DNA of 64,000 nucleotides from Rhizophagus irregularis (taxonomy: Eukaryota > Glomeromycota > Glomeromycetes > Glomerales > Glomeraceae). The first letter of the stretch is position 1; each line of letters begins with the position of its first letter. Made by a program: the position numbers and the translations under genes. The notes beneath the pieces are model-generated. The model was not told where the DNA came from and ran no database searches. It saw only the letters and a program-made list of their open reading frames with translations. Shown here piece by piece: positions 1-48,149 of the stretch. The stretch is taken from NCBI RefSeq assembly GCF_026210795.1, contig NC_089431.1:1116001-1180000 (forward strand). Direction: 5' to 3'.

Positions 1-1113
1 TCCCAATTCCTCAGACAGAAATTTAATTAATATCGGTTCTGATTTTAAAAAAGCTAAAGCCAGTTCTCGAGAAACCAAACCAATTTTGTCACTATTGAGT
101 CCTACAATAATTTTTTTCTCAATTTGATGAACATTTCCTATATTCGGGTGTAACTCAAATTTTGATTCTAGACTATAAATCAAATTTATATCTACATTTC
201 GTTTTAAACCACTTTCATTAACTATAATTATGGGAATAAAAAATTAAGTAACTTGTGATAATGAGTTAATATCAAAAGTAATAAATATAATTACTTGTAT
301 CCATTAATTTACGAAGAATTGGAGCTCTTTCAACGTTTTCATTACGTCTATCAGCTACTTCAATATATCCACCTGGTTTCGTTACTCTAAATATTATTTA
401 AAAATTATTAAAAGCAAAATATGTCATATATATGGATCGTATTTCTTTAAAATAATAATAATAATAATAAAAGAAATACCTAATTAGCTCAGAAAGAATG
501 AAATCCCATTTATCTGATGTATAAATAAGTCTCATTAATTCTATATGTGTGAAATCAAATTCATTATCACCAAATAATAACCCGGCAGACACATCAGCTT
601 TGAAAAATTCAACATTATTTGGTTTTATCTGTCAATTTATATAGAAAGATAGGTCAAAATTTTGATTTAATTTAATAAATAATAAAATTCTTCTTACTTC
701 TTGTGGAAACATTAGTTCACTATCAACTCCAAAAAAATAAGAACTTTCATATTTGCTCGATAAATCTAATAACCATGTACCAGGACCGCACCTTAAAAAT
801 TTAAAATTATTATTCAAATAAATATATGTATCATAAAAAAATTGTTCATTTGAGTGATATCTTACCCAACATCTAAAACTTTATACCCTCCTCTAATTAA
901 ATTTTCCTCAACTGGGGAAGAAAAATTACTTTGAAATATATATTGTCTAAGAAAATGAAAAACATGAAACCTATCAATAGAATCGGTACTAGTCGAGAAA
1001 TAATATCCCAAAAACTTTTCATGTCTTTCTTGATCTGATTCTATTTGGTTAAATTCTTGTATATTTTTGATTAATGATCGTTCATGTTTTGAACGTGAAT
1101 TTTTATTACCCAT
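1..1113 (-). CDS. SAM-dependent methyltransferase, copy A (3' end beyond window)
   Basis: Class I SAM-dependent methyltransferase; substrate unknown. Exons 866-1113, 698-791, 480-628, 295-386 and 1-221, the last one continuing past the left edge. All introns are GT-AG and every visible exon is open. Exon 1 encodes an N-terminal arm starting MGNKNSRSKHERS, which fits the N-myristoylation pattern Met-Gly-x-x-x-Ser with basic residues behind it. The exon 1/2 junction encodes motif I (KVLDVGCGPGTW), the SAM-binding glycine loop. Exon 2 ends strand beta-2 with the acidic FFGVD, and exon 4 carries VTKPGGYIEV. It is closest to copy B. The C-terminus and stop are outside the window, so integrity of the last part is unknown. 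Confidence 0.85.
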
Positions 1114-2766
1114 TATTTAAAAAAAATAAAATACTTTAAGGTGAAATTATCCTATAAAAATTTTTTATATTAATTATCCGTCAAGAACAAAAAAAAGGGG
1201 TACAATTTAAGGAAATATTAAATGATCTACCATGTATGACGATTTAAAAATAATGTACAACAAATAAACGCGAAACTTCAATGGACGAATAGACGATTGT
1301 GTTACAAATCTTCAAACTATTAAGTTACCATAATGCTCATTATACTCTCTAAAAAACAATTTGTTGATCTCAATTAATCTGCATATTATTTTGCCGATTT
1401 GGGTAACAGTTTTAAAAAAAATAACTTGTAAATCAGTCAAGATTTTCATCTTTCTTCCGAGATTAACGAGATTTTTCTTAGATTGCTTCTAAAGGAAGAA
1501 ATACTCTTCCGAAAATCTTATCAATTTAAGTTTTCATTGTTATTAGTATATCAATTGTTGATTTCATATAAAATAAAAATGATAAATGACAACTATATTA
1601 AACTAAATTAATTTAATTCTTTTTTTTATTTTTTTAATAATATCTATACTTAATAAAGAACTAAAAATGGCTATAGATAATCTGTCTTTGATTGAACACA
1701 CAAACTATCTGTATACCTTAATCATTAATGCTGGCCGGTATTAAAATCACGTGACACCGCATTTGAGTTTTTTTTTAACCCGCAAAAATGTGAATAAGGA
1801 TTATCCGACGGCTTAATCCGGATTTATCCGTGACGGATGTCCCAGAAATATATAATAAGGGTCAGGTGGTCTTTGAACTTCTTACTAATAGCTGTACGCA
1901 GGGGAGTTTCCATAAAAATATACAAATAAAATTTCAGACCTTAAATTTTTTATTTATATATTTATTATATGTTTGTACTTCCATAATTTATTAAATCTAC
2001 TTTTCACCACATACAATTAAATTTAATATAACAATACAGTACATCATTGCATCAATACATCATGATCGGTATTAAAATCTTTAGAAAACAACTTTAATAT
2101 TATATTAAGAAACTAAATAAATAATAGATATTGGTTAGGGTGTTATTACGCAGACGTCCAAAAGTTAATATGTGTGATATTTAATCTAATGATGCGTCAA
2201 AAATATCAAAGATATTAATTCGTACATATTAAGATTTTTTAATAAAAATAGTATGCAATATGATTGATCCTGAATACAGAATAAACAAAAAATTCCTAAA
2301 CTGTACGCAAATCAAAACCTTACTATGATGGTAGACCTTACCCTATATATATTTTCTGGGTCATGATGTATCCGGAAAATTATCCGTTATCTGGGTTCGG
2401 GTATAAGATGGATTATCCGGATGGACGATCGTTTCAACAATTATTGTTAACACAATTTATTACTATTATACTGCCCAGAACATAAACTATTGAATCATCA
2501 AATTTGTATTATTAAATTCTTGTTCTACATCCTTTTACTTATACGATTTCGAATCGATGAATATAGTATGTCAACTTGCATATAATGGTACCATCTCTTT
2601 AATTACATAAATTTTTTCACGAATAAATAGCGTGATAATAATGCGCATCGATTAAAAGATTTATAATCATAAAGTAACTTCTTGCTGCAATTGCTATGGG
2701 GTTTGTTTAAAATTATCTTGTTTGACGTAATTTATTCATAATAAAAGAAAAAATGAATTATCATAA
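1114..2766. other. Spacer between copies A and B, holding a MITE
   Basis: AT-rich spacer upstream of copy A. Besides the inverted-repeat element listed separately, it has degenerate 'ggattatccg' motifs near 1795-1840 and in inverted form near 2375-2430, on either side of that element. This suggests an older foldback sequence split by the insertion. No gene seen. Confidence 0.5.
1838..2371. mobile_element. MITE with CCCAGAAATATA inverted termini
   Basis: The left end reads tcccagaaatatataa and the right end, reverse-complemented, gacccagaaaatatata. Inside are gctgtacgcag near the left end and ctgtacgcaaatcaaaac near the right. The same termini and internal motifs occur at 41131-41676, so this is a second, more decayed copy of that non-autonomous element. 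No clear target duplication and no transposase. Confidence 0.6.
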
Positions 2767-4028
2767 TTACATTAATTGTTTTTGCGCCCAAATCCTAACA
2801 TAAATACTTTCAGAACAAGATTGTTCGAATTCTTCGGTTAGATCTTTTTCTATCATACTTTTGTATTCTTCTTCAGAAATTCCCATTTCCTCAGGCAGAA
2901 TTTTACTTAACGGTCCTGTTTTGAAATGAGTTAAAGCCAGATCTTGAGTAATCAAACCAATTTTATCACCATTGGGTCCTATAATAAATTTTTTTTCAAT
3001 TCGATGAACATTTTCTATATTCGGATGCAACTCAAATTTTGATTCTAGATTATAAATCAAATTTACATCTAAATTTCGTTTTGTACCACTTATATTAACT
3101 ATAATTATGGAAAATAAAAATAAGTACTAACTTGTAATACACTTAATACATGAAATTAATATTAAAAGCAATGAATATAATTACCTATATCCATCAATTT
3201 ACTATAAATCGGAGCTCTTACAACATCTTCATTACGTCTACCAGATACTTCAATATATCCACCTGGTTTCGTTACTCTAAAAAAAAAAAATAATATAATA
3301 TTATTTAAAAATTGGCAGAAGCAAAACATGATATAGATATGTGGATTGTATTTTTCTTTAAAAAAAAAATTTAATAATAAAAGAAATACCTAATGAACTC
3401 AGAAAAAATGAAATCCCATTTATCTGATGTATAAATAAGTCTCATTAATTCTATATGTGTAAAATCAAATTCATTATCACCAAATGATAATCCATTAGAT
3501 ACATCGGCTTCAATAAATTTAACATTATTTGGTTTTATCTATCAATTTATATGAAAAGAAAGGGTCAAATTTTTGATTTAATTTAATAAATAAAATTTCA
3601 TAAATTTTCTTACTTCATGTGGAAACATTGGTTCAACATCAATTCCAATAAAGTTAGAATTTGCATGTTTGCTTGATAAATCTAATGACCATGTACCAGG
3701 GCCGCACCTTAAAAAATTTAAATAATCATTCAAATAAATATGAGTATCATAAAAAATATTTACTTGAAAGATTAACTTACCCAATATCTAAAACTTTATA
3801 CCCTCCTTCAATTAATTTATCTTCAATTGGGGAAGAAAAATTACTTTGAAATACATGTTGTCTAAGAAAATGAAATACATGAAGTCTATCCATAAAATCG
3901 GTATCATTCGAGAAATAATATTCCAATAACTTTTCATGTCTTTCTTGATCTGATTCTATTTGGTTAAATTCTTGTATATTTTTGATTACTGATCGTTCAT
4001 GTTTTGAACGTGAATTTTTATTACCCAT
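2767..4028 (-). CDS. SAM-dependent methyltransferase, copy B (304 aa)
   Basis: Complete copy. Exons 3781-4028, 3614-3707, 3390-3538, 3185-3276 and 2767-3098 (248+94+149+92+332 nt), all introns GT-AG, giving 304 residues. The start MGNKNSRSKHERS fits an N-myristoylation consensus (Gly2, Ser6, basic residues after it). A leader of about 77 residues contains FSSPIEDKL just before motif I, KVLDIGCGPGTW (residues 78-89). The beta-2 acidic residue that should bind the ribose of SAM is Asp106 in FIGID. VTKPGGYIEV follows in exon 4. The C-terminal exon has GPNGDKIGL and ends in WAQKQLM. The substrate cannot be told; fungal relatives of this type are often annotated simply as methyltransferase-domain proteins. 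It lies about 1.7 kb from copy A, same strand. Confidence 0.9.
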
Positions 4029-4296
4029 GGTTTAAAAAATAAAGCATGTAAGGTGAAAATTATTGTATAAAATTTTTTCTACCAATTTAATAGAAAAACA
4101 AATGATCTACATGCCGATCTACAATAATGTATAACAAATAAAACGCGAGACTTTCTATGGACGACTGGACGTTGTGTTACCAAATATTCAAGCCATTAAG
4201 TCCTTTAAAAAACAGTTGCTAATCCAAAATTCTGTTTTGTAACATTTTTAAAAATAATCCGAGGTACTGTTATGTCTGGATTTTCATCTCATTTTT

Positions 4297-4488
4297 CTTA
4301 AATTGTATAAAAAATTTATTCCGTGTTTTTTTATTCCATGTTATTTCCATAAATGTATCGCATTCCCGGAATTAATAGTCTCAAAACAAGGAAATATATA
4401 AGTTGCTTAGGTTTTTAGTTATTTTTTCCGTAAATGTATCATATTCACGGAGTTTTTACAGAAATTACGGATAAAATTTTTTACAGGG
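4297..4488. mobile_element. Small MITE relic (CCCTGTAAAAAA termini)
   Basis: The reverse complement of the right end reads ccctgtaaaaaattttat, then ttctgtaaaaactccgtgaa. The same succession (ttctgtaaaaactccgtaaa) is found at 36319-36499. Several 'ccgt..aatgtatc' motifs lie inside. A short non-autonomous element in two copies in this window; no ORF. Confidence 0.5.
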
Positions 4489-4489
4489 A

Positions 4490-5440
4490 TCCAAAGGAAG
4501 AAGTACCCCTCCTAAAATCTTATCAATTTAAGTTTTCATTTTAATTAGTATATCAATTATTGATTTTCATAATTAAAATAAATAGAATAAAATAGCGACA
4601 AATAACAACCCTACTAAGATTTAAGAATTAGCGATTGTATCTGATTAGCATCCGGATAAAGAATCCGCCACCGATAAGAATATTTAATATATTCGGGTAA
4701 TCACCATTCACCTTTTGGTAAGTCATTTTTGTAGATGCTTAGGACATCGGAATCGGAAAAAATGTAGCCGGTCAACGTGATATTTAGCCACGTTATTATT
4801 TAACAAAAAATAGATGAGCAAGAACATCAAGAAACCACGACGTGTCATCAAAAAATTCTAGTTACAGAATTATTTAAAGAAACCAGAATAATCTGGAATT
4901 AATAAAATAAACCAGTTAAATGCAAGACATTATGTAAAAAGAATATGCTTTATAAACAGCGGATAAATAATAGGAAATTTTCCGGTTAATATAAATTCTA
5001 CTTAATATTCAGTTCGCAATAGCTATTGAAAATAAATAATAATGATTATATTTAATATAGTAAAATTAAGTAAAAATTGTAATTTAATTTTTTTTTTAGT
5101 AAATTATTATTGGATTTGTATGCGAGATCTTTTATAGGCTACAATCTGCTAAGTGTCCCGTTACAATAAATCCATACATTTGTAGCTGAAAACTTGCCAG
5201 ATCGTCAAAGTTGTCGTAAATAGAAAAACTCTTTACAATTTTAAAATAAAATGTAATATGTAAAAATAAAAAGAATATTATATTATAAAAAGATATAAAT
5301 TTGAAACTAATTTTTAATATTCGATGCCTGCTCTGGTAACTGTATCTGTTTCTCCTGAACACCACGTAGAGACTTCAAGTTAAAAAATAATGAATAAGAG
5401 TTAACCAGGGTTTATCATTCTATGATAATATCTGATTAGG
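4490..5440. other. AT-rich spacer without a recognised gene
   Basis: Upstream of copy B. The ORFs here are short and AT-driven, with no motif. Nothing else seen. Confidence 0.4.
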
Positions 5441-5451
5441 CAATACAGTAT

Positions 5452-6222: not shown

Positions 6223-6225
6223 AAG

Positions 6226-7323: not shown

Positions 7324-7333
7324 CACTCGATTT

Positions 7334-9356: not shown

Positions 9357-10616
9357 TTACGATAATTGTTTTTGAGCCCAAAATCTAAAATGAACACACT
9401 CAGTGCTAGTTTGCTTAAATTCCTCAACTAGATCTTTTTCTGTCATATTTTTGTATTCTTCTTCAGAAATTCCCATTTCCTCACTTAGATTTTTAATTGC
9501 CATTTCCGATATATAATAAGAAAAGGCTAAATCTTGAAAAATTAAACCAATTTTGCCACCATTGGGACCTATAATAAGGTCTTTTTCAATTCGATGAATT
9601 TTTCCTATATTTGGTTGTAATTCAAATTTTGAATCTAGATTATATATCAAATTAGTATCAATATTTCGTTTCGAACAAGATGCCCAAACTGTAATTAATT
9701 ATGTTTTGTGGAAAATGAAAAATTAGTATATTATAATTACAATAATACATGAAATTAAAATTCAAAGAAATGAAAATACTTACGTGCATCTGACATTTTA
9801 CGAAAAATCGGACCTTCGCCAACATAACTATTACGTCTATCGGATACTTCAATGTATCCACCTGGTTTCGTTACTCCGTAAAATATATATGTACAGTATA
9901 TTAATAAACTGGAATACCCAAATATGATATACTTACGTGAATAATTTTTTTTCAAAAAAAAAAAAAAAATACCTGACAAGCTCAGGAATAACAACATCCC
10001 ATTGGTCTGATGTTAAAACAAGGCTCATATGTTCTATGTGCGTAAAATCAAATTCGTTATCATGAAATGATAGTGCATCAGTTACATCAGCTTCGATGAA
10101 TTCAAGGTTATTTGGTTTTATCTATCAATTTATATAGGAAAAATGATAAATTTCGGTTTTTATTTTAAAATTAAATAAAACTTATGAATTTTATTACTTC
10201 TCGTGGAAAAATTGGCTTAAAATCAACTCCAAAAAAATAAGAATTTTCATATTTGTTCGCTAAATCTAATAACCATGTTCCAGGGCCGCACCTTAAAAAT
10301 AAATAATCATTCAAACAAATATATGTATCATAAAATTCCCAAGATATTTGTTGAAAAATGTCACTTACCCTATATCTAAAACTTTGCTCCCTCCTTTAAT
10401 TAATTCATCTTCAATTGGAGAAGAAAAATTACCCCGAAATAGATACCTTTTAAGAAAATGATACATATGTAATCTATCGATAGAATTGATATCGGTCGAT
10501 AAATAATAGTCCAATAGCTTATCTTGTCTTTCTTGTTCCGATTCTATTTGGTCAAATTCCGGGATTTTTTTTATCGTTGACTTCTTATGCTTTAAACGTG
10601 AATTTTTATTACCCAT
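9357..10616 (-). CDS. SAM-dependent methyltransferase, copy C (splice acceptor of intron 3 lost)
   Basis: Exons 10369-10616, 10198-10291, 9973-10121, 9784-9875 and 9357-9688. All five are open, and normal splicing would give 304 residues starting MGNKNSRLKHKKS (myristoylation consensus), with motif I VLDIGCGPGTW, FFGVD and VTKPGGYIEV. The acceptor of intron 3, CAG in most sister copies, reads CGG here because of a C at plus-strand 9877. The nearest downstream AG would shift the frame. An upstream AG at 9909-9910 (ttccag) keeps the frame and would add 33 nt, giving 11 extra mostly hydrophobic residues before VTKPGG. The gene is therefore either spliced in this altered way or is an early pseudogene. 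The translation start is set by alignment with the other copies; an upstream in-frame ATG gives a leader the others lack. Confidence 0.75.
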
Positions 10617-13372: not shown

Positions 13373-14625
13373 TTACGATAATTGTTTTTGAGCCCAAAAT
13401 CTAACATGGAAAATCCTAGGGCTTGTTTGTTTGAATTCCTCAAATAGATCTTTTTCTATTATATTTTTAAATTCTTCTTCGGAAATTCCTATTACCTCGC
13501 TTAGATTTTTAATTGTCATTTCCGACGTAAAATAAGAAATACTAATATCTTGAATAACCAAACCAATTTTACCACCATTAGGACCCATAATAACATCTTT
13601 TTCAATACGATGAACTTTTCCTATATTTGATTGTAATTCAAATTTTGAATCTAGATTATATATCAAATCAGTATCTATATTTCGTTTCGAACGAAATGCC
13701 CAAACTGTGTTCATTTGTGGAAAGTGAAAATTTAGTATCTTATAATTACAATGATACATGAGTTTAAAATTAAAAGCGATGAATATTCTTACTTGCATCA
13801 TACATTTTACGAAAAACAGGACCATCACCAACATGACCATTACGTCTACCAGCTACCTCAATATATCCACCTGGTTTCGTTACTCTGTAAAAATAAATAT
13901 GTACAGTATACTACGAATAAACTGAATACGCAAAATATGATATATTTGTATGGATAATTTATTTTTTTTTTAAATACCTGATGAGCTCAGAAAGAATAAA
14001 ATCCCATTGGTCTGGTGTAAAAATAAGGCTCATGCCTTCTACATGTGCAAAATCAAATGCGTTATCATGAAATGGTAATCTATTAGTTATATCGGCTTCG
14101 ATAAATTCAAGATTATTTGGTTTTATCTATCAGTTTATATAGGACAAAGGATCAAATTTACGGTTTTATTTAATAAGTAAAATAAAATTTATAAATTTTA
14201 TTACCTCTTGCGGAAAAATTGGTTTAATATCAACTCCAAAAAAATATGAATTTTCATATTCGTTCGCTAAATCTAATAACCATGTACCAGCGCCGCACCT
14301 TAAAAATTTAAATAATCATTCAAATAAACATATTTTTTCGAGATATTTGAAATGTTTACTTGAAAGATGTCACTTACCCTATATCTAAAACCTTACATTC
14401 CCCTTTAATTAATTTATCCTCGATTGGGGAAGAAAAATTACCTTGAAAAATATATCTTTTAAAAAAATGATACATATGTAATCTATCAATAGAATCGACA
14501 TCAGTCGATAAATAATAGTCCAATAGCTTGTCTTGTCTTTCTTGTTCTGATTCTATTCGGTCAAATTCCGGGATGTTTTTTATTGTTGATCGTTTATGCT
14601 TTAAATATGAATTGATATTACCCAT
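13373..14625 (-). CDS. SAM-dependent methyltransferase, copy D (304 aa)
   Basis: Exons 14378-14625, 14205-14298, 13978-14126, 13793-13884 and 13373-13704, all open with GT-AG introns, giving 304 residues. N-terminus MGNINSYLKHKRS keeps Gly2, Ser6 and the basic patch. Motif I reads VLDIGCGAGTW: the proline of GCGPG in the other copies is alanine, a substitution common in working class I methyltransferases. The acidic beta-2 residue is in FFGVD. VTKPGGYIEV, GPNGGKIGL and the terminal WAQKQLS are present. Exon sizes equal those of copies B and C, showing tandem duplication from one five-exon ancestor. The start is supported by alignment of all copies. Confidence 0.9.
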
Positions 14626-16537: not shown

Positions 16538-17785
16538 TTATTGCGATAATTGTTTTTGAGCCCAAAATCTAAGATGGAGATCAAGAGGGCTTGTTTGACT
16601 GATTTCCTCAATTAGATCGTTTTCTATCATATGTTTGTATTCTTCTTCAGAAATTCCCATTTCTTCACTTAGATTTTTAATTGACATTTCCGATGTATAA
16701 TAAGACATACCAATATCATGAATAATCAACCCAGCTTTACCACCATTGGGACCTATAATGAGATCTTTTTCAATTCGATGAACTTCTCCTATATTTGGTT
16801 GTAATTCAAATTTTGATTCTAGATTATATATCAAATTAGTATCTATATTTTGTTTTGAAAAAGTTGACCACACTATAATTATATTTCATGGAAAGTAAAA
16901 TTAGTAACTTATATAAATACACAATACACGAAATTAAGATTGAAAGCAATGAATATACTTACTTGCATCTGATATTTTACGAAAAATAGGACCATCGCCA
17001 ACATGACCATTACGTCTGTCAGATATTTCAATGTATCCACCTGGTTTCGTTACCCTGTTAAAAAATATATATGGTAATATGGTATAAATTTATTTGTATT
17101 ATTTTTTTTTTAAAAAAAAAAGAATAAAAAAGAAATACCTGATGAGCTCAGAAAGAACAAAATCCCATTGGTCTGGTGTTAAAACAAGGCCCATATTTTC
17201 TGCATGTGTAAAATCAAATTCGTTATCGTGAAATGGTAATCCATCAGTTACATCGGCCTCGACGAATTCAAGATTATTTGGTTTTATCTATCAATTTATA
17301 TAGGAAAAATGATAAATTTCTGTTTTATTTTAAAAATAAAATAAAACTTATGAATTTTAATATACCTCTTGCGGATATAATGGTTTATTTTCGATTCCAA
17401 TAAAATAAGAATTTTCATATTTGTTTGATAAATCCAATAACCATGTTCCAGGGCCGCACCTTAAAATTAAATAGTCAAATAAATATATGCACCATAAAAT
17501 TCTCTGAAATATTTGAGATGTTCATTTGAAGAATATCGCTTACCCGATTTCTAAAACCTTACACTCTCCTTCAATTAATTTATCCTCAATCGGGGAAGAA
17601 AAATTATTTTGAAATATATGTTTTTTAACAAAATGATACATATGTAATCTATCAATAGAATCGATATCACTCGATGATAAATAAAATAGGTTTTCTTGAC
17701 TTCCTTGTTCCGATTCTATTTGGTGAAATTTCGGGTTTTTTATTGATAATCGTTTATTTTTTAAATGTGAATTTACATTACCCAT
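16538..17785 (-). CDS. SAM-dependent methyltransferase, copy E (303 aa)
   Basis: Exons 17544-17785, 17366-17459, 17139-17287, 16963-17054 and 16538-16872 (242+94+149+92+335 nt), all open, giving 303 residues. Starts MGNVNSHLKNKRL, keeping Gly2 and Ser6. Motif I is VLEIGCGPGTW, with Glu79 where the others have Asp, and beta-2 ends FIGIE with Glu104 instead of Asp. Both are conservative acidic swaps tolerated in class I methyltransferases, so activity is still plausible. The C-terminus has one extra residue (QLSQ), shared with pseudogene F, so E and F are probably sister copies. Confidence 0.88.
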
Positions 17786-20762: not shown

Positions 20763-22034
20763 TTATTGTGATAATTGTTTTTGAACCCATAATCTAAAAT
20801 GAAAAATCTTAGGGCTGGTTTGTTTGAATTCCTCAATTAGATCTTTTTCTATCATATTCTTATATTCTTCTTCAGAAATTCCTATTTTTTCACTAAGATT
20901 TTTAATTACTATTTCCGACGTAAGATAAGAAACATAAATATCTTGAAGAACCAAACCAGTTTTATCACCATTGGGACCTATAATGAGATCTTTTTCAATT
21001 CGATGAACTTCTCCTATATTTTGTTGTAATTCAAATTTTGAATCTAGATTATACATCAAATCAGTTTCTATATTTCCTTTTAAAAAATATGTCCAAACTG
21101 CAATTAATAATTATATTTATTTGTGGAAAATGAAAATTTAGTATCTTATAATTACAATAATACATAAAATTAAAATTAAAAGCAATGAATATATTTACAT
21201 GCGTCTGTTATTTTATGAAAAATCGGACCTTCGCCAACATGACCATCATGTCTAGTACTACCAGCTACTTCAATATATCCACCTGGTTTCGTTATTCTGT
21301 AAAAATGTATATACAGTATATATACAAATATTTATAAACCGGAGACCCCAAAAATAAGATGCACATATGACATATGTATGGGTGATTTTTTTTTAAAAAA
21401 AAAAGAAATACCTGATGAGCTCAGAAAGAACAAAATCCCATTGGTCTGGTGCAAAAACAAGGTCCATATTTTCTACATGTGTAAAATCAAATTCGTTATC
21501 GTGAAATGATAATCCAATAGTTACATCGGCTTCGATGAATTCAAGATTATTTGGTTTTATCTGTCAATTTATGTAGGATAATAAATCAAATTTTCGATTT
21601 TATTTCATAAATAAAATAAAATTTATAAATTTTATTACTTCTTGTGGTTATAGTGGATTAATATCAACTCCAAAAAAATATGAATTTTCATATTTGTTCG
21701 CTAAATCTAATAACCATGTTCCAGGGCCGCACCTTTTTTAAAATTAAATAATCATTTAAATAAATATATGTACCTTAAAATTCTTCGATATTTTGAGATG
21801 GTCACTTAAAAAATATCACTTATCCAATATCTAAAATCTTACACCCTCCTTCAGTTAACTTATCCTCAATTGGGGAAGAAAAATTATTTTGAAATACATA
21901 TCTTTTAAGAAAATGATACATATGTAGTCTATCAATAGTATCGACATCACTCGATGATATAATTATACCATAGCCTTTCTTGATTTTCTTGTTCCGATTC
22001 TATTTGGTCAAATTCCGGTATTGTTATTACCCAT
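20763..22034 (-). pseudogene. SAM-dependent methyltransferase, copy F (pseudogene)
   Basis: Same five-exon plan: exon 1 about 21824-22034, then 21639-21732, 21412-21560, 21199-21296 and 20763-21097. Four separate lesions are visible. Exon 1 lacks about 43 nt after codon 4, so the frame stops after MGNNNTGI. A second frameshift lies before SSDVDTIDRLH. The intron 1 donor reads gg|ataag instead of gg|gtaag (plus-strand 21823). Exon 2 has a stop at 21648-21650, where the sisters have Tyr or Phe before PQE. Exons 3-5 remain open, and exon 4 has a 6-nt insertion. Death probably began in the 5' half; the intact 3' exons argue it is fairly recent. Confidence 0.88.
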
Positions 22035-24832: not shown

Positions 24833-26190
24833 ATGGGTATCAACAATTCAAGACTATTAAAATCAAAAAAATCGAAATCGATACAAGTATCATCTCATGA
24901 TCTATTAAACAAAGAAAAAGAATCAACGTATTATTTATCGAACGATATAAATGATGTTGATAGGTTACATATACACCATTTTTTTAAAAAATACATATTT
25001 CAAAATAATTTTTCTTCCCCGATTGAAGATGATTTAATAAGAGGATGTAAAGTTTTGGATGTTGGGTAAGTTTTAATTCAAATATGGGTGAATTCTATGA
25101 TTCTACAGTATGTATAATTTATTAATTTTATTACCGTTACTTCTTTTTTTCTTTTTTAAAAAGATGTGGTCCTGGCACTTGGTTATTAGAATTATCAAAT
25201 ACATATACAAGTTCTCAATTTATCGGACTTGATATGACGCCAATATATCCACAAGAGGTAAGAAATTTGTGTGGTGATGAAATTTTGTGAAAGTGAGGAA
25301 ATTTTGTGAAGTGGTGAATTTTTTGAAGTGGGGAAATTTTAATTTTAATTTTTCTTTTTTTTTTTTAATAGATAAAACCAAGTAATCTAAAATTTGTCGA
25401 AGGAAATATATTTAATGGATTACCTTTTCCTGATAATGAATTTGATTTTGTACATATGGAATCAATGATACTTATTCTTACAAGAGATCAATGGAATTTT
25501 GTTTTTTCTGAGCTCATGAGGTAATTTTAAATTATACAAGTATTTCTTTTTTTTTTAAAGTATCGCTACTGTATCACTTACTTTATGATCATCATCATTT
25601 AAAGGGTAACAAAATCAGGTGGATTTATAGAAGTAGTCGAACCATACATTATACCTGATGAAGCAGGTCCAATTTTTAAAAAATTATATGGAGGAAGTAA
25701 GTTCATTCTTTATCTTGTATATCTTTTGATGATGGAACGGTCTAGATTATGTTAATCAGCAAATAAATTCGTCACGCTCACTTTTTAACATATGACATTT
25801 GCACAACGTAAATGATTATATTTATACTAATTAAATATTTAATTACTTTTAATTAAAGTTTATGACTCTTCCTTAAAACGAAATGTGGATATGAATTTAT
25901 CATGTAATCTTGATTCAATATTTGAATCACATTCAAATATAACAAAGATACATCGAGATGAAAGGAAGACCATCATTGGACCGAATGGTGATAAAATCGG
26001 CATAGTTTATCAAAATATATTTGTATCATTCTGTACTACGGAGATGGCAATAGATAGTCTAAGTAATGAATTGGGAATTTCTAAAGAGAATTTTAAATAT
26101 ATGGCAGAAAATGATATAATAGAAGAATTTAAACAAACAAAACCTGAAATTAATTATATTAGATTTTGGACTCAAAAAAATTTAATATAA
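24833..26190 (+). CDS. SAM-dependent methyltransferase, copy G (299 aa, inverted)
   Basis: The only plus-strand copy. Exons 24833-25065, 25164-25257, 25372-25520, 25605-25696 and 25859-26190 (233+94+149+92+332 nt), GT-AG introns, complete at 299 residues. N-terminus MGINNSRLLKSKKS keeps Gly2, Ser6 and several lysines. FSSPIEDDL precedes motif I VLDVGCGPGTW; beta-2 ends FIGLD; EGNIFNGLPFPDNEFDFVHME and VTKSGGFIEVVE follow. The C-terminal exon has GPNGDKIGI and ends WTQKNLI. It is more diverged from A-F than they are from each other and shares WTQK with copy H, so G and H may be the older members. Being inverted, it faces the same upstream spacer as pseudogene F. Confidence 0.92.
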
Positions 26191-28720: not shown

Positions 28721-30802
28721 TTAAGCTGCTTGTTGAAGTAAAACTTGAACACCACTAACAGGAGGTGCATCTCCATTAAAAACGTATATATAAGAAGGAC
28801 CAGGAGAAATTATTGTAGGATTTGGAGGTAATTTAATAGTTAAAATATATTGATCAGCAGCTGATGAATCGGCCCAAAAGTTTGTAATTTCAAGATAAAC
28901 ATAACGTTGACTGAAATTTTGTGAATGTGTGATGAAACCATGATGTATAATACAAGCTTTCAAAACTGGTTGGTTACCACCATCAGATTTAACTTGTATA
29001 ACCATAGTGACTTCTTGGCCATAACTTACAGGAATTCTGTTTTCATTAATTGGGGAAGTTTGAAGAGAAATAATATTTGGACGAGGAGTTGATGAATAAA
29101 GATAAGGTGGATAGAAAATTTCAACACGATATCTAATGGGAGAAAAAAAAAAAAAAAAATGATTAGAATTTTTTTAATTACCGTAAAAACACACACTATA
29201 AAATATTAAAAAAGTTAACTCACTCAGTGGAATATTTAACATTAAGAGAGACGCTACCCTGTGGATTACTTCCGGCAATAAGTACAGATCCATCAGGTAT
29301 TAAAGTAGAAACAGAGTGATACATTCTGGGTATAGTGGAAGCAGCAAGAGTTTTATACGTTTTAGCAAATGGATCATAAAGGAATGGAGTAAACACGGGA
29401 TTTTCATTGACCCATAAAGCGTTAGCGCCTCCACCTTTACGATAACCAGCGAAACCAGTTGCAGCACCATTAACAAACAAGATGGACCCATCCACTAAAA
29501 AGGTAGCATCAGGCATAACACGTCCTTGACCACCGAATTCATCCATTTCCCATGCAGCATTTGGTGTAGTTAATTCCAATCTACCACAAGAAGCTTCAGC
29601 TGGTGATGTAAGTTCATAAACTTTATTACCACCACAAATCATGACAGTTGGTTTATAATAATCCGTAGGGTCAAGTGGTATAATAATAGAAGTTCCAGTT
29701 AATGGATATGAACGAATACCACCTGGAATTTTTGGATATGTTGTAATAGTTGTACCGGTGTCAAGATCATAAGCAATTCCATTTTGATTCGCAAATATGA
29801 AAAGTTGAGTTTTTCCTTCATAATTTGGAATTACATGTACCATTGGATAAAGATTATATGGTAAAAGGGAACTTAAGAAAGGAAAAGCAGTGTCTGTCAA
29901 AGGACCACCATTTGGAGGTGGAAAGATTGTGTAAGTTGGATTATCAATTTCAGCTCTATTAACACCTGTAGCAGCAGTTGAACCTCCTAGAATCATTACA
30001 TTTCCGTTAGGTAAGGTTACCATAGCTGGATACCATCTATTTGATGGAACAATTCCTTCTAATTCAACCCAATCTCCAACGGATGGATCATATAAACGAA
30101 GCGTTTGTATACCACTACGATAATTTGCATCTCCTTTATCACCTCCCGCTTCAACCAAAGTTCCATTCCCTAACCATGAACCTGATGAACAAAATGTATT
30201 TGTGTAAATTCCAAGTGGTTTAGCTGTATTTGTATCTAAATCATATTCTGATGATAACGCGGAAAGCCCATCAGGTCTCTTCAACGCATTATTTTCAACT
30301 AATTTAAAATGTAAGGGAAGAAAAGAAAAAAAAAAGAAAAATAAATAAGTAAATAAAATTAATAAAATTAATAAAATTAATAATTTTACAAACAAAATAA
30401 ATATGAAAAATTTACGTTTGTCTACAAATACTACTTTTCTAGGAGATACCAAGACAGCATGCATGGCATTGACTCCGGACCTAATGTACAAAAAAAAAAA
30501 AAAAAAATTGTAAGTATTATGATATGCAACTTTGTATACACATATTATTACAGTTACAAATAAACACTTGCTTTCCAACAATTTTAAAAGCTCCAAGCGT
30601 TGAACCTGGATCTTGGCGTGCTGTAAGAAGGAAAGAATCATAAAATTTAATAAAATGTACAGAATCAAATATGCGCAATCAAGGAAAATTAGCTGATTAG
30701 ACTATTACCTTGTAATGCAGGTAATGCATTTACGTTTGTTTTGTCATTTAGTAAAATCAATCCTCCAAAGAGGAATGCAAATAAAACTAATTTAACATTC
30801 AT
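28721..30802 (-). CDS. Secreted copper-radical oxidase (glyoxal/galactose oxidase family, AA5)
   Basis: Extracellular copper oxidase that would oxidise aldehydes or alcohols and release H2O2. Exons 30709-30802, 30566-30620, 30416-30480, 29224-30298 and 28721-29132 give 566 residues. Residues 1-26 form a signal peptide (hydrophobic LVLFAFLFGGLILL). SGVNAMHAVLVSPRKVVFVDK opens the beta-propeller core. By comparison with characterised family members, Cys108 (NTFCSSGSW) and Tyr161 (NRWYP) should form the thioether radical cofactor. Tyr398-His399 (RMYHS) and His499 (ITHSQN) should bind copper. The C-terminal part from YRVEIFYPPYL is the Ig-like DUF1929 domain. The end of exon 2 (donor gtttat) is the least certain boundary; it was chosen because it keeps the frame and gives IVGKQVSGVNAMH. 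The exact substrate cannot be told. Confidence 0.9.
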
Positions 30803-37285: not shown

Positions 37286-39147
37286 TTAAACTTCCGATTT
37301 TTTCTTTTCTTTTTCTTTTTTCTCTTTATAAAAATGATCTTCGTTGGATAATTCTTCAAGTGACAAACCTTTTGTTTCGGGTAATAACAGGGTGAATAAA
37401 CCACCAATAAACATCCATGCTGCAAAGATTATAAGCAATCGACCCACAAATGCGTCCGCTCCACCAATGTCTTTAAGTTTTGAAAATCCAACTTGAGCAA
37501 CAATTGCACCAAGTTTTCCGGACGCTGCTGATATACCATGACCAGTTGACCGATAGCGCGTTGGAAAAACTTCTCCCGGTACAATAAATGTTGTTGTGTT
37601 TGGACCGAAATTTTGAAAGAACTAGCGAAAAATGATTTAGGTATTTAGTTTTTTCGCTTTGATTTGTCCAAATCGGCAAGATTGCGCTCCAACTCAGTTT
37701 TTGTGGAAATAAAAAATAAATAAATAAATAAATAAATACCTGCAACAATACGAATAAGACGATAAATGCAGGAATAGAATGTTCCTTCAGTTGTTCAAAA
37801 GAGGCGCCCATAGCAATAAAGAGTGCAGTAAGGACACCAAAACCCATAAATTGAATAGGCTTTCGACCCCATTTATCTACCAATAATACGGTAACCCAAT
37901 AACCAGGAATGGTACCCATAATTGTAATGATAATATTACCAATTGCCATATTTTTAAGTGAATTATAAGCCCTTAAATTATAATCAGCATCTTTAGCATC
38001 CGAGTAGCCAATTGCACTTAGAATAATCGCGTTGTTAAGACCAATTCCATAAAAAGCAATATCCAGTGCGAACCATGACATGGAAGTACCTAATAAAACT
38101 TTTCCATTATACCATTTTCCGAAATAATTAAAGAAATCAGACCAACTTGCTTTTGGTACATGATATTCAGATGATGTATCATCATCGTGATTGTAATTAT
38201 CATTATGATCGTTATTGTCGTTATGATTGTTATGATCGTTATTGTCGTTATGATTATTATCGTTATTATTGTCATGATCATTTTTATCGTTATTGTGTGA
38301 TTCATTAGCTTTTTTCTGCAAATAGGATGTAATATCTGTAGACGCTTTCATTAGATTTCTTTCAACTTCCATTGTATATCGTGGCGTTTCTGGAATAGTG
38401 AGACGAAAGTAGAGAGCGAGTAAACCAGGTACGGCTCCCAAACCAAGTATCAAACGCCAGCAGTAATCAATTACCATAACATTATGAATGATGCCATTCC
38501 TGAAAGCTGCTAATACAATAAGTGCTACAAGACCTGCTGCGAATATTCCGAATCCCTGCATAGCAAACACAGCGGCCATCATTGCGCCTCTTCTTTTTTT
38601 GGTTGCAAACTCTGAGGTAATTATTGACGAAAGTGGATAGTCACCACCAATACCGATACCCATGATTACACGCCAAATCATGATTGTAGCGGTTACTGAA
38701 ATAGCATAACTTTCACCGCATAATGCTGAAGCCACTGTTGCAACAATAATAATCATCAATTCAATTCCATACATCTAAAATGTAAAATAGAACCAAATTT
38801 AAACTGAAATTTAAGTTTTCTCCATCCTCATCACACTTTTCTCACATCATTTTATTTACCTTTTTTCGTCCGAGTACGTCAGCCAACCAGCCGAAAAGTA
38901 ATTGGCCTATTAAGTTTCCAATGGAGGCCGACACTTTCAAACCCAAGTCGATATTAGCGGGTATCTTGCCGTTATAATAGACATATCCGATCATAGTAGA
39001 GGCGAAATTGATAGCAAACAGATCGTATGCATCCATAAAAAATCCAGTACCAGCTACTAAGCACGCACGAACATGATACCAACCAAATTTTGCATCATCA
39101 ATCTCCTTGAGAGCTGCTCGACGTTTTTCTATTAAATCAGTCGGCAT
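37286..39147 (-). CDS. PHO84: H+/phosphate symporter, Pht1/PHO84 family (552 aa)
   Basis: Plasma-membrane high-affinity phosphate:proton symporter of the major facilitator superfamily. In mycorrhizal fungi such proteins take up soil phosphate in external hyphae. Exons 38860-39147, 37740-38774 and 37286-37621, phase 0 junctions, 552 residues. Recognised by [26 protein letters not shown] in the N-terminus, [12 protein letters not shown] after TM2-3, the Pht1 signature [13 protein letters not shown] (from residue 139), [13 protein letters not shown] in the second half, and [20 protein letters not shown] with [17 protein letters not shown] in exon 3. The C-terminal tail is lysine-rich ([13 protein letters not shown]). 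Unusual is a run of Asp, Asn and His (residues about 253-295) in the large cytosolic loop between TM6 and TM7. The symbol is by homology with the yeast transporter. Confidence 0.93.
38178..38306 (-). repeat. Coding microsatellite-like repeat (Asp/Asn/His run) in the phosphate transporter
   Basis: On the coding strand the units are of the type aacgataat, cataacgac and gatcataac, all GAY/AAY/CAY codons. They encode about 43 residues almost all Asp, Asn or His. The frame stays open and the flanking transporter sequence is intact, so this is an in-frame expansion. Confidence 0.85.
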
Positions 39148-41130
39148 TATGTAAAAGTGTTAATTATTTAGAGAAAAGGAATGAAAAAAAAAATGGAGAA
39201 AGGGCTTTTTTATTACTGAATTTAAATTATAATTACCAGGGTTGTAAAATTCCGAGTGAAATTAATTTGTAAATGATGATGAAATTATTTCAACAGCCCA
39301 ATATACCTTTGCTTTGAAAAAAGGAATGGTTATTTTAATATTAGGTAAAAAATTAAAAATTAATGTTCATATATGGCCTGGAACCGGCGTTAAGGGTAGG
39401 GGTCGTTACCAGGGTTTTGTCGATCCTCGAGATTATCCGGATAAATCACCATGTTAAGCTCAAAAAAAAAGTTATGGTAATTTTTTTATATTATCATCAT
39501 TTTGAATATTGTGAAATCATAATTTGATAAATATAATCTTTTTGATTTTTGCGAACAATTAGTAAGCTTTTACCATAAACGGTAAAAACAATTTTTTGTT
39601 TCAAATATGCAAAATTGAATTTTCCGTTCCCCGCGGAATTTCAAAAAACTTTCTTTGGTAACAAAACTCCGGTAGACAATAGAAAAAGAAATTTTTTACA
39701 CTTCCGTGAATACGATGGTGTTAAAATATAATGATATTGGAAGTTAAAAAAAAAGTTAAAAAAAAAAGTAGCTTTTTTTTCATTTAAAATAAGCCTTATA
39801 ATAAAATGACAATAATAATTTTTTTTTTCTTTTTTTTCAAAGAAATTTCGCCGTAATTATGATATAACTTGTTATACGCAAATGCAAAAAAAAAAATTCT
39901 ACCCATTTTATATATGCGTGACATTGTACGCATGTACGATCAACAAGACTTTCCATATTTAGATTAATGACATGATCTTTTTTAGGTTTGCAGATCCATA
40001 GATCTTTTAATTTATATTTTTTATAACGTAAAAATTTTTTAATTAAAATATACATAATATATATGCGCGTATAGTTAAAAAAATTATAAAGTTAAATTTA
40101 AATTCAAAAGTTAATTAATTAATTTGGCGAAACAGCATTGGTCGTTTATATTTAATGTAAATATAATAGAAATGTTGGAGAGTCTAAAGAGAAATTTCAA
40201 AAATTAGTTGTATGTCTAAATTAGTAATTGCAATTATGTCCGCGGTATGTAGTTATTTTTATGATGATTTCACTTGTAGACATTAAATTATTTAAATTGA
40301 ACAATTATTAAGATATAGTACATGTAATCGCGAGTTACCGTGTATTAACTATATATGTGAAAAAATTATGTCGCTTGCCGTGTCATATGAAAACAAATAA
40401 ATGCGGATAATATAGCAACCGATTTTTAGTGCAGAGATTGAAGGCAAATCTTTTTCAGCCATCATGTAAGATAAAATAAGATTTAGTAATTAGGATTTAT
40501 TTATTGAAAAAAAAAGGTTTCACAATCTTTCGATTATGGCAATGATAGAATGTGCTGTCAAAATTCTTGGATATGATTGGTGGGAATTATATCCTTCAGA
40601 TGTTACCCATATTTCCGAAACTCCGAAAATAATTCTATTTTATACTGTATATTTTACATATATATATATAAAGTGTAAATAAGTATACATCTAAAGTAAA
40701 TAATATTTATGATGTTGCAACTGTCATTAATGTAAACAGCACATCCTTTGCTAAATTTTGTTAATATGGAAATATGGACGAAACGGCAAAAGAAAAAAAA
40801 AGCCGAGAAATCTATGACAAAATGTTGATGGTGAATTGGTGATAAATATAGATAAATTCAATTTATTTTATTATCGAATATCCGTAATAATATTATTTAA
40901 AAGCATGTTACAATTTCTTTATTAATTCAGCTAACATAGAAGAATAGATAGAGTCAATTATACGGAAGATTTAAAAAAAAAGAAAAGTATATGATATATG
41001 TGGAGAATGTAATGAGTCTGTAGGAGAAAGATGGTGACAACCCTGTAATGCTAAAGATTTAAGAGAAATTTCTTGAATGAATACCTTTTGAAATTTTTTT
41101 AAAAATGTTATTATGTTACTAGAGGTGGCT
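39148..41130. other. Spacer upstream of the phosphate transporter
   Basis: AT-rich, with a short GC-richer patch near 39375-39440 (ggaaccggcgttaagggtag). No CACGTG or CACGTK-type Pho4 site stood out in the first 300 bp upstream of the start. No gene seen. Confidence 0.4.
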
Positions 41131-41676: not shown

Positions 41677-41683
41677 GGTGGCT

Positions 41684-43394: not shown

Positions 43395-43470
43395 ATTCGT
43401 CAACCTTTATAATAAAGAGGGTGCTTATTTTCGAGGGGTGCTTAATTTCAATAAAATACAGTATTAAAAA
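43395..43470. repeat. pogo-type terminal repeat relic
   Basis: The reverse complement reads tactgtattttattgaaatt, then aagcacccctcgaaaataag and caccc. The DNA next to the transposase relic at 58105-58175 reads, in the same sense, taccgtattcctctgaaaat and later ttgcttattttcggg. A single isolated terminus. Confidence 0.4.
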
Positions 43471-43824
43471 AATATTAATTTTTACAATTATATAAATATC
43501 AGATTATATAAATTGTTTCAATTATTTGCAGTAAATGATTTTCTTTATTGAATATTAAATCCGACAAAGGCATTAATTCTTGCGAAATATTCTAAAATTA
43601 TTACAAGGTTATAGCAAAATTATTACATCTAAAAAAAATTAAAAAAAAAAAGATACTGTAAGGCCACGCAAATTAATATTTTCAGTTCACGTAACATTAA
43701 AATTTAAAATTAACCCGGAGACCTGGGTTTTATTTTTTATTAATCAAAAATTATTATTATAAGTCACGTGATATGCTAGTTTATAATTAGATAATCTGTA
43801 TGGGGTTTCGAAGGATAATCAAAT

Positions 43825-44879
43825 CGGTTTATCCCACACAAATACAGGAACATAATTCCTAAAGAACCCCTTTACACGGACAAGGGTGTTTATATAATTC
43901 CAGGTTCCAGAGAATGGTTTACTTATATGTATAATTTACACATCAATATACCCCACCTCTTACAAAAGCTCAACGCCACGCCTTACGACTCAATAATGAG
44001 TGTATCGAGAGAGACACTAAATGGAGAGAAGATGCAAAATATCATGGGACATCATTCAACCGAATCAACCGTTGACAATATTTAACGTTCTCGATGACTA
44101 GATTTTGTGATCGTTTCCACACTGAAATGATGGAATTCAGAGAGCAATACCTACAAACTAATGACGAGGATAAGAAATTACAAATTTATATGAAAATGAA
44201 CACATACACCACAATATTGTCTGTACCTAACAGAAACCGCAAATCCCTTATCAACCCAATCGCTACCCTTCCTTCGGGCGCTCCAGATGATACTTCTGAC
44301 GATACAAGAGAACTCAAACTTAGACCTAAAAAATGAAGAATTTCTTCGTATACTAACCTTTACCCATTAATAGATAACAGTGAACGATTCAAACGTAGGC
44401 ATTCCTCTCCTGCCTTATTGGACGACTCAACAGGAGCGGACCTCAAATGATTTAATATTTGCATTAGTTTTTTGAGTCAAAATTTATTTTTTTACAAGTA
44501 GTTTTTTTTCTACATCTTATTTTTATACAATTTATTTTTACACCAAATTTATCGATATATTCAAAAACAATTTAGAATAGTGTGAATCATTCCAACTCTG
44601 ACAGTATTTACAGTTGGCGACCTTTTGGTTGAAAGAAAAATACGGAACATTTTTTTTATATTTGTTTGTTATACTTTATTAGTGTAGTCTTTTTCTTTTG
44701 CTCTTTTAATGGCTACCTGTTCCCTCATCGGTCGGGATGTTGGAACAGTCTATATATAACTATTACGTAGGGTCCGTTCTATGGAATGGATGATGGACTA
44801 AGTGTTGGGCATATTTCTTCGGATACATGCTCTCTTAGATAGTTTTTCCGACTTTACATAAAATAAATAAATAAATAAA
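43825..44879 (+). mobile_element. 5'-truncated LINE-like retrotransposon insertion
   Basis: Flanked by a perfect 15-bp direct repeat GAAGGATAATCAAAT (43810-43824 and 44880-44894). The right end is an (aaat)n tail (44857-44879), placed immediately before the second copy of the repeat. A tail plus a target duplication longer than 10 bp and no terminal inverted repeats is the signature of target-primed reverse transcription. The 1,055-bp insert carries only the 3' part of a reading frame and a 3' UTR of about 520 bp. Confidence 0.7.
43860..44336 (+). pseudogene. C-terminal ORF remnant of the LINE-like insertion
   Basis: The frame begins near 43860 with EPLYTDKGVYIIPGSREWF and shifts near 43957 into PLTKAQRHALRLNNECIERD. 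It crosses a TGA at 44073-44075 and continues as MTRFCDRFHTEMMEFREQYL to RELKLRPKK and a stop at 44334-44336. No reverse transcriptase or endonuclease motif is in the preserved part, so I cannot say whether it is ORF1 or ORF2. Assignment to the retroelement rests on its position between the target duplications. Confidence 0.45.
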
Positions 44880-44944
44880 GAAGGATAATCAAATTTTTTT
44901 CATTCCAGTTTGTTACTAAAAATGTCTATCATACATGTACGAAT

Positions 44945-45357
44945 AAGTTACAACCCTGTAACTTTAAAAGATTAGGAAGGTTTACCAGTTGTAAAGGTAT
45001 AAAATACACAAAGTCCTCATAGCACAGATGACTCATTAAAAAAATTATTTTCTATTGTTAAGGTTAATAATACCCTAACATGTAATAGTCCTATTGAAAT
45101 TCCATATTATTCAAGTGGATTATTTAAAGAAGCACTTGTTTTAACTGTGGGGCAGAATGTGAAGAAGAAAATAATTATGGAAAGTATTTTCCATATTGTG
45201 AAGATTGTAGTGCGTTAAGGAAAATGTTGGTAGTACCATTGGAGATGATAAGATGGAAGCTCAAGGATATGCTACTAAATTAAAGGGAGAAAGTAAAATG
45301 GAGAGGAATAATCAGTCGAAAATAAAAAGAGAAGAAGTAAAGAAAATAAATTTGTAA
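44945..45357 (+). pseudogene. Relic encoding a CX2C...CX2C zinc-binding motif
   Basis: Fragments in different frames line up as one protein: HSTDDSLKKLFSIVKVNNTL and SGLFKEA, then CFNCGAECEEENNYGKYFPY followed by CEDCSALRK, then GDDKMEAQGYATKLKGE, ending KREEVKKINL and a stop at 45355-45357. At least two frameshifts separate them. The CFNCGAEC / YCEDC arrangement looks zinc-binding. Family not recognised. Confidence 0.4.
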
Positions 45358-46879
45358 AGTCAAGTAAACGTAAAAAATTTTATCACGTGATTTCAAGTAA
45401 TAAATCTTTATTATGAATTAGTAATTTAAACATTTTTACATATAAAAATTTTTTAGTCAAATTTTGAAAAAATGACCCGGCCGGGTGAAATGAACCGAAA
45501 ATATTAGTTTTCGTGGCCTAATAAGTGTGTCGGACTTGTGTTAAAACGGGATTCTGATCGTCAGGACTTTGACAGTGATCGGGGTAAGACTAAATTGATT
45601 AAAACTCGATCACATTTAATTGATCCATGTGGTGACGGACCCTATAACAGATAACTAATTTATTAATCCCCCCTGTCGCACTCATGATTACTTTCATACT
45701 AATTTTTGAAAATTGCGAGTGATTAGCAGAGTTTATACTTATTTCCGGTCTCATATAGATAGCCGGGAAATTTCTAATTTTAGTTTAAAATTTTACCACA
45801 TGTTAAGTGACACGCTCCTGGGATCATTTTCTAGTTTTTTATTCCGAAGAAACTCAGACACGTGATCATTTTTCTGAAACATTTTTTATAGAGAGGGTCG
45901 GAGGAAATTACTCATTTATTTCCAACTCCCCATGAAATAAATAATACAAATTCGCGTATTTAATTAGTACTGGCTATAACGAATTAGAATTTTTAAATTC
46001 GCTATATAAAGGTGAAACTGTACATTGCTTTATTTTGAGTGGAATAAAGGATATATTTTTGTTACATGATTCCGCAAGGAAAATGGTAGGTTAAAAGGAA
46101 TTTTCATTGTGGGTAAATGCCAGTTATGGTCCAAGCGTTGGAGTTGTTATCTTCAATAACGAGGTTATTATGTGAAAATATTTGTTTGAACGTTGTTATT
46201 CATCAACGTGAAGGTGTAACAAGAGCTAACCGCAACAAGTTGAAACCGGCTTGATATGATGTGATTGAATCCTTATTTTATGGTTGGGAGAGATATCTGG
46301 GGCAAATTAAATGCTGCCACTTTCGGCTTCCTTTTTCCTGATTCACATGTCAGACTTTGTGGTAATATAGGCTATAGGTGCTGAAGTGGTATTATTGCTA
46401 TTAGCATATGATTATATTTTGTCCACAGCTATGAAATTGATCTTACGTTATAGCTATACAGATCAATTTTTTTTGATTTATCACGTGTTTAAGTACATTC
46501 TCAATTTAAATTATATACAATTCGCAGCAGTAATATGTAGTAAATATAAATGCAGTATTATAAATTTACGTAAATATTTGATTTCGAAATATGTTTAAAC
46601 CTCTCCGTTAAGAAATTTGAAAAACGCCATTATGCTCATAAATCTTTTTCTCAATAGGTTGAATATTTGTAAACCAATGTATGAGTGCTATTTATTTTAC
46701 AGCATAATCTCAATACTTTGATATTCATTCACTATTGATATTGAAAAAAAAAAATCAAGTAATATTAAAGTATCTTTGCGATATGGACGTGATGATACGA
46801 ATTAAATTAATTAAATTAAATAAAATAACCGGATTAAGAAAGTAGGATATTGATATATATTAATATTCCCCGGTGTAAA
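45358..46879. other. Spacer without a recognised gene
   Basis: Includes a fragment rich in 'gggattctgatcgtcaggac' (45545-45570), similar to relics at 11940 and 20540 of the 7.3-kb MITE type. The 70-codon open frame at 46386-46598 has no support. Confidence 0.35.
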
Positions 46880-48149
46880 TTAACAAATTTTTTGAGTCCA
46901 AAATCTAAGAACATGACCTTTAGAAGTTTTGTTTTCCTTTAAGTCTTCTTTAAGACTTTCTACGATTTCCTTAAATTTCTCTTCAGAAATTCCTATTTCA
47001 GCACTCAAATCTTTAATTGCCCTATTTGTGGTAAGAAATAATATTACCACTTCTTGATAAACTAAACCAGGTTTACCACCATGTGGTCCAAAAGTGACAA
47101 TTTTCTCGTCATGATGAACGACTCCTATATTTTGATGTGATTCAAGTATTGAATTAAGGTGAATTATCGATCTTATATTCACATTTCGTTTTAAACAAGA
47201 CTTGTAAACTACAATATTTAAAAATAAAAATAATATTAATACTAAGACTAGTATGTAATTATATAATGTGCGTGATTATAATAAGAAATGGATACACTCA
47301 CATCCTTTATAAATTGTATAGAAATTTGGACTAGATTTATCAATGTTAAGGTATAAATCAGTTATTTCGATATATCCGCCAGGTTTGGTTACTCTGATAA
47401 ATGATGATTATAATAAAGTCGAATATTAATAATATTGATATAATAAGTTATAAAAAGATAAAAAAAAAATTCTTTTTACCTAATCAGTTCAGAAAGAGTG
47501 AAATTCCATTGTTCTGTCGTTAAAATATTCACCATTGATTCTATATGTGTAAAATCAAATTCGTTGTCTCTAAATGGTAATCCATCAAATATATCGGCTT
47601 CGATAAATTCAAGATTACATGGTTTTATCTATCAAGTTTATAGAAAAACAATTTAATCTTATTCTTTAAAAATACAACTTTTTTTTTTTTTGCACTGATG
47701 AAATTTTACCTCTTTTGGAAATACTGGCTTTATATCGAGTCCAAAAAAATTTGATTTGTCATATATAGTCGCTAAATCTAATAACCATGTACCGGGACCG
47801 CATCTTATATAAAAATACGAAAAAAAATTATTTATATCAAAAAACGTTTAATTAATTAATTTTAATAAAATTTTTCTTTCACTTACGCAACATCTAGTAC
47901 TTTACACCCTAGAGTTAATTTCTCCTCAACAGGGGCAGAAAAATTACCTTGAAATAAATATTTTATAATAAAATTATGCATATGTTGCCTATCAATATCA
48001 TTTAAATCATTATTTGATAAATAATACGCTAGTTCTTGTTCTTCTTCATTTACGACTTCTGGTGATACACCTTCTGATAATTGGTTTGGTACTAATTGTG
48101 ATTTTGATCTTGTTTCTCTTGATTTCAAACACGAATTACTATTACCCAT
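46880..48149 (-). CDS. SAM-dependent methyltransferase, copy H (308 aa, dispersed)
   Basis: Exons 47887-48149, 47710-47803, 47480-47628, 47302-47393 and 46880-47208 (263+94+149+92+329 nt), 308 residues, complete. The intron 4 donor is GTGAG, the others GTAAx. N-terminus MGNSNSCLKSRETRSKS keeps Gly2 and Ser6 and adds Cys7, a possible S-acylation site beside a myristate. The leader is longer and Glu-rich. Motif I reads VLDVACGPGTW: Ala88 replaces the first glycine of GxGxG, the only copy with this change. Beta-2 ends FFGLD; VTKPGGYIEI and FWTQKIC follow. It lies 20 kb from the array, beside unrelated sequence, and is the most diverged member. Confidence 0.9.

Follow-up and report, generated by a model that had tools for sequence, protein, structure and literature searches.

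A large family of predicted methyltransferases in Rhizophagus irregularis carries a putative N-myristoylation signal that appears to be kept by selection

We analyzed a 64,000-nucleotide stretch of DNA from the arbuscular mycorrhizal fungus Rhizophagus irregularis (C3:1116001-1180000, hereafter the window), which holds eight copies (A to H) of a five-exon methyltransferase gene, and searched the whole genome (146,748,485 bases, 32 contigs) for relatives. Judging from the sequences, it is highly likely that these genes come from a large family of paralogs, class I S-adenosylmethionine (SAM) methyltransferases with an old N-terminal myristoylation signal kept by selection, by which the proteins would carry a lipid and be located at a membrane. 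The window copies are the following:

1..1113, minus strand: copy A, methyltransferase gene; MGNKNSR start at 1113; five exons, read from frames and exon edges
2770..4028, minus strand: copy B, methyltransferase gene; MGNKNSR start at 4028; exon 1 at about 3780-4028
9360..10616, minus strand: copy C, methyltransferase gene; MGNKNSR start at 10616; exon 1 at about 10368-10616
13376..14625, minus strand: copy D, methyltransferase gene; MGNINSY start at 14625; exon 1 at about 14377-14625; PF13649, 62 bits
16541..17785, minus strand: copy E, methyltransferase gene; MGNVNSH start at 17785; exon 1 at about 17543-17785
20766..22034, minus strand: copy F, pseudogene; ATG at 22034; leader deletion and frameshift; stop in exon 2
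24833..26187, plus strand: copy G, methyltransferase gene; MGINNSR start at 24833; exon 1 at about 24833-25066
46883..48149, minus strand: copy H (locus L018), methyltransferase gene; MGNSNSC start at 48149; exon 1 at about 47886-48149; PF13649, 56.3 bits

Copy A runs past the low end of the window and continues in the DNA of locus L009. Exon 1 comprises the leader followed by a conserved stretch that ends in KVLDIG or similar, and exon 2 begins with CGPGTW or similar, which places intron 1 within the SAM-binding motif I. Exons 3 and 4 begin with IKPNN and VTKPGG, respectively, or similar sequences, and exon 5 encodes the C-terminal part. The acceptor of intron 3 in copy C (about 9874, minus strand) reads GG instead of the AG found in the other seven copies, and splicing of this copy may therefore be impaired. 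Copy F had rightly been set aside in an earlier note on this DNA, since the leader deletion shifts its frame and exon 2 contains a stop. Its apparent Thr6 (MGNNNT) should not be counted either because it lies at the deletion junction. Exon 5 of this copy is still open despite both lesions.

The window genes are members of a class I SAM-dependent methyltransferase family, and their products would presumably be catalytic. The Methyltransf_25 profile (PF13649) matched both D and H well above its curated cut-off of 27 bits. Both models were joined by hand from reading frames, and their approximate exon 4-5 junction lies outside the matched stretch. The glycine-rich motif I ([CS]GxG) was found in 76 of the 83 aligned members of the family. 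No protein arginine methyltransferase (PRMT) model was among the Pfam matches (E up to 0.001) of D (nine families) or H (six families), the two copies that were scanned. Searches against the PDB and NCBIfam returned generic class I methyltransferases only, all NCBIfam matches being below their cut-offs. In the PDB, H was weakly similar to phosphomethylethanolamine and sterol methyltransferases, a similarity that is generic to the fold.

The N termini of the seven complete window copies read as the earlier note had given them, including Cys7 of H, and all seven begin with MGxxxS. Counting copy F, the nucleotide pattern ATG-GGN-N6-AAY-WS has eight occurrences in the window, compared to 1.08 ± 0.99 in 100 shuffled sequences. 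A looser pattern without Asn5 was not enriched in the window (16 occurrences versus 14.8 in the shuffles), and the bare MGxxx[S/T] motif is thus uninformative by itself in window DNA. Exon 1 of the six other complete copies is 42-84% identical to that of copy C. Since the Gly2 codon is GGT in all eight copies and the sixth codon is TCA in six of them, the copies of the window do not by themselves distinguish selection from a recent shared ancestry. Over the 21 pairs formed by seven copies, the pooled ratio of nonsynonymous to synonymous differences per site (pN/pS) was 0.74 for the leader and 0.64 for exon 5, compared to 0.48 and 0.53 for exons 2 and 3. The faster change of leader and exon 5 may suit changing partners or substrates, and relaxed constraint explains it equally well.

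The genome was searched using exon 1 without the leader as the query, so that the choice of members was independent of their N termini. Joining two result lists gave 90 places, all of which were recovered with 500 bases of upstream DNA, and a blind rule took as the start the first in-frame ATG that follows the closest stop upstream. Thirteen places were dropped, either for want of such an ATG or for a premature stop within the match (L004, L006, L027, L039, L042, L053, L054, L078, L079, L084, L086, L088, and L090). Among the remaining 77, Gly2 was found in 56 and MGxxx[S/T] in 52. The latter was present in 18/18 members of the C3 cluster and in 34/59 elsewhere. Relatives without Gly2 and Ser6 in equal numbers, which the earlier note had named as the observation that would speak against selection, are thus not what the genome holds. 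When the assigned starts of these 90 loci were removed, MGxxx[S/T] was read at only 12 of the 2,840 open ATGs that were left (0.4%); with the assigned starts kept, the count was 70 of 2,920. A background of 80 in 3,993 open ATGs (2.0%) was discarded because it included the family's own starts and counted the window copies twice. As controls, we took 11 further PF13649 places that were not among the first 90, minus four apparent relatives (L094, L097, L098, and L101). An MGxxx[S/T] open start was found in none of these seven within 900 bases upstream, a weak control in which few starts are known and which was kept out of the statistics.

Six places (L094, L097, L098, L101, L103, and the broken L104) were added to the first 90, giving a family of at least 96 places, some of them broken, on 23 of the 32 contigs. 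Only 22 of these places lie in the C3 cluster, so that the family is not mainly the local expansion that had been proposed. Because the genome searches score the best candidates only, the family counts are lower bounds and the family may be larger. In this extended set a start was read for 85 of the 96 places, of which 60 carry MGxxx[S/T], 5 carry Gly2 without it, and 20 lack Gly2; outside the C3 cluster, MGxxx[S/T] was present in 42/67. This extension favors the motif. In L020 and L030, the start was shifted downstream to another in-frame ATG on account of its MGxxxS, and at the 32 places that lacked a Gly2 start only MG starts were sought upstream. That scan covered about 172 open ATGs, among which approximately 0.7 MGxxx[S/T] would be expected at the above background rate of 12 in 2,840, and four were adopted (L026, L027, L039, and L088). 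Support for the upstream exons is modest (E of 1e-4 for L027, 0.022 for L026, and 0.075 for L039), and in these three the GRR[FY] stretch of the family lies in the same open frame. The upstream exon of L088 had no independent match in a later search, and without it the tally is 59/84. L098 rests on a weak exon 1 match (E of 0.13) together with PF13649, and in L097 another in-frame ATG precedes the listed one, neither of which yields Gly2. Because the extension leaned towards MG starts, we regard the blind 52/77 as the fair figure. Two near-identical pairs of exon 1 were also observed far apart (L058 and L059 on C27; L042 on C8 and L053 on C5). The second copy of each pair has no later exons in the DNA examined, which suggests recent partial duplication or relocation.

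Across this family, the two motif residues are conserved against a strongly diverged background. For the 54 tree members that carry MGxxx[S/T], core identity has a median of 32% and a minimum of 20%, and the triplet at residues 3 to 5 takes 52 distinct forms among the 60 MGxxx[S/T] members. On the core tree (76 members with a start), parsimony required 17 and 22 steps at positions 2 and 6, respectively, compared to 34 to 53 at positions 3-5 and 7-15. Similarly, model rates computed over 79 members were 0.75 at position 2 and 0.36 at position 6, compared to 1.0 at position 3, about 1.5 at positions 7 and 9, 1.9 at position 15, and 2.3 to 2.8 at the remaining positions up to 15. Positions 2 and 6 are thus the slowest changing of residues 2 to 15. 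The codons have meanwhile moved: the 58 Gly2 members in the tree use GGT (25), GGA (25), GGG (4), and GGC (4), with 21 silent steps, and the 49 Ser6 codons required 18 steps on the tree. The presence of Gly2 is clustered on this tree: it takes 10 steps, whereas 500 shuffles gave a mean of 16.4 and no value below 12, indicating that Gly2 was lost on certain branches or gained on others. The proposal that Gly2 and Ser6 are under selection, which the window could not decide, was therefore borne out at the level of the genome, and a selected myristoylation signal on this methyltransferase family is, from these comparisons, strongly supported.

N-myristoyltransferase specificity is characterized by precisely such a profile of conserved Gly2 and Ser6 with basic residues nearby. 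Among the 60 MGxxx[S/T] members, 33 have Lys or Arg at position 7 and 57 have at least one at positions 7 to 10. The net charge of residues 2 to 21 had a mean of +4.1 and a median of +4 over 51 members, compared to +0.6 and +2 over 16 members without Gly2. The leader has a median length of 36 residues, and an A precedes the Gly2 start at -3 in 54/58 cases, supporting the assigned start codon. Four Gly2 members carry a Cys within residues 3 to 8, namely, copy H, L028, L070, and L083. L070 starts with MGCVCVKPK and L028 with MGNCFCKPK, starts that presumably resemble those of dually acylated proteins, in which Gly2 is followed by a nearby Cys. The transferase itself appears to be encoded as well, since the N-myristoyltransferase profile PF01233 gave three matches in three exons at one place on C31 (best E of 1e-25). 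The MGxxx[S/T] members are thus very probably N-myristoylated, as far as can be predicted from their N termini.

Several observations weigh against this interpretation. When rates are ranked over the whole protein, position 2 is only the 100th slowest of 266 and position 6 the 42nd. Gly2 is missing in the 20 members mentioned above, five more have Gly2 without Ser/Thr6, and the assertion that the consensus marks every copy with a full exon 1 holds for the window (7/7) and does not extend to the genome. The PROSITE-type myristoylation pattern G-{EDRKHPFYW}-x(2)-[STAGCN]-{P} was matched by 51 of the 65 Gly2 starts and failed by 14, 10 of which carry Lys, His, or Phe at position 3. MGKxxSK starts are nonetheless known from neuronal calcium sensors. 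In addition, the members are related, so that counts are not independent trials and we quote no probability for them; start codons were read from DNA and not from RNA; and some copies are broken, such as F and also L023, whose match contains a stop but which is included in the MGxxxS count.

We considered whether shared descent alone could explain the motif, the copies being recent tandem duplicates too young to have lost Gly2 and Ser6. The near-uniform Gly2 and sixth codons of the window and the exon 1 identities to copy C would fit such a history. However, the motif is kept at a median core identity of 32% and on 20 contigs while the neighboring residues turn over, and the Gly codon has undergone its 21 silent steps. 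This explanation is thus largely refuted, and we consider it very improbable. Hardly more credible is the idea that Gly2 is kept for the start context (a G at +4) or for N-terminal stability, with a basic, Ser-rich leader acting as a mitochondrial or nuclear targeting peptide. The leaders are indeed basic, many are rich in Ser, and A at -3 is common. Nevertheless, Ala, Val, Glu, and Asp codons would also provide G at +4, yet Gly is the second residue in 65/85 members, and only 4/18 members without Gly2 have G at +4. Furthermore, neither idea accounts for Ser/Thr6 or Lys7.

Two further alternatives concern what the proteins would do at a membrane. They could be stored regulators, with myristate replacing a FYVE-domain tether and a signal releasing them to the nucleus. 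This would resemble Aspergillus, where, according to PMC4299510, two methyltransferases, VipC and VapB, are retained by VapA at the plasma membrane pending a signal. The velvet domain (PF11754) is present in the R. irregularis genome, with ten matches at five places. Diverged members of the family carry a GRRFHN..LPND..DRL..QH stretch, which we take to be a feature of LaeA-like enzymes. The size of the family, however, suggests diversified substrates rather than a single regulator, and storage of this kind seems unlikely to us. Alternatively, the enzymes might methylate lipids or small molecules at the membrane, the duplicates diversifying in substrate. Faster change in exon 5 and leader than in the SAM-binding exons 2 and 3 points in this direction, as does the weak resemblance of H to phosphomethylethanolamine and sterol methyltransferases. 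That resemblance is nevertheless confined to the SAM-binding region and the faster change may be relaxed constraint, leaving a metabolic role possible but somewhat doubtful.

Taken together, we favor a selected myristoylation signal that would act as follows. The initiator methionine would be removed, and the N-myristoyltransferase of the genome would attach myristate to Gly2. The basic and otherwise freely diverging leader would add electrostatic binding to acidic membranes, and in the four members with a Cys at positions 3 to 8 a second acylation is possible. The methyltransferase domain would thereby be anchored to the cytoplasmic side of a membrane and could there methylate membrane-near proteins, lipids, or small molecules, or be stored until released. 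A membrane function of this kind is plausible. We think that a role in signalling or metabolism at the membrane is most likely, storage and release in the manner of VapA-VipC-VapB being the serious alternative. Rather more speculatively, the repertoire of about 60 lipid-anchored methyltransferases with diversifying C-terminal regions might constitute a membrane-surface methylation system, possibly including a myristoyl-release switch, for signalling or for lipid or small-molecule modification at fungal membranes, among them the symbiotic interface.

The window contains other genes. A glyoxal oxidase-like gene (28724-30701, minus strand; Glyoxal_oxid_N and GO-like_E_set) lies between methyltransferase copies, and a major-facilitator transporter (37286-39159, minus strand; Sugar_tr), which we assume to resemble a fungal phosphate:proton symporter, is located between copies G and H. 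The window also encodes two small Cys-rich proteins of similar appearance, at 59476-60153 (plus strand) and 63221-63832 (minus strand). The former, which contains a repeated acidic stretch, matched no Pfam family, and a zinc-ribbon match of the latter fell just short of the cut-off (24.6 of 25 bits).

MGxxxS(K)-type starts in variable surroundings, including MGKxxSK, are characteristic of N-myristoylated signalling families such as NCS-1/hippocalcin, ARF, calcineurin B, and the plant calcium-dependent protein kinases, whose domains are unrelated to the present ones and include no methyltransferase. We found no description of a family like this one in searches of the open-licence PubMed Central literature on myristoylation with Rhizophagus or mycorrhiza or on methyltransferase expansion. 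The word methyltransferase does not occur in the main text of the R. irregularis DAOM197198 assembly paper (PMC10234402). In PMC5982333, a relationship to bacterial genes is given for two methyltransferase genes of R. irregularis, one of which is of the Methyltransf_25 type. Methyltransferases that keep the signal under selection in so large a fungal family would represent a novel means of directing methylation to membranes, and the family offers a large set of candidates. Novelty is nevertheless more modest than in the earlier note, which had ranked this as possibly the most novel system of the window and a membrane as an unusual location for the fold; myristoylated and membrane-tethered methyltransferases are known. 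The scale of the family is larger than had been noted.

The one myristoylated methyltransferase that we can name with support is PRMT8 of vertebrates, a protein arginine methyltransferase that is directed to the plasma membrane by myristate and basic residues within its first 20 residues, as stated in PMC8621972. Like the present family, it combines an N-terminal myristoylation signal and basic residues with a SAM methyltransferase. Unlike it, PRMT8 is a vertebrate protein of the PRMT family, whereas the R. irregularis enzymes are of the generic Methyltransf_25 type (as seen in D and H) and occupy at least 96 places. The VapA-VipC-VapB system, as described in PMC4299510, shares with this family fungal SAM methyltransferases at a membrane, a location that is predicted here, and the two are likened by description and not by sequence. 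It differs in that its tether is a separate FYVE protein, whereas here the putative signal lies within the methyltransferase itself.

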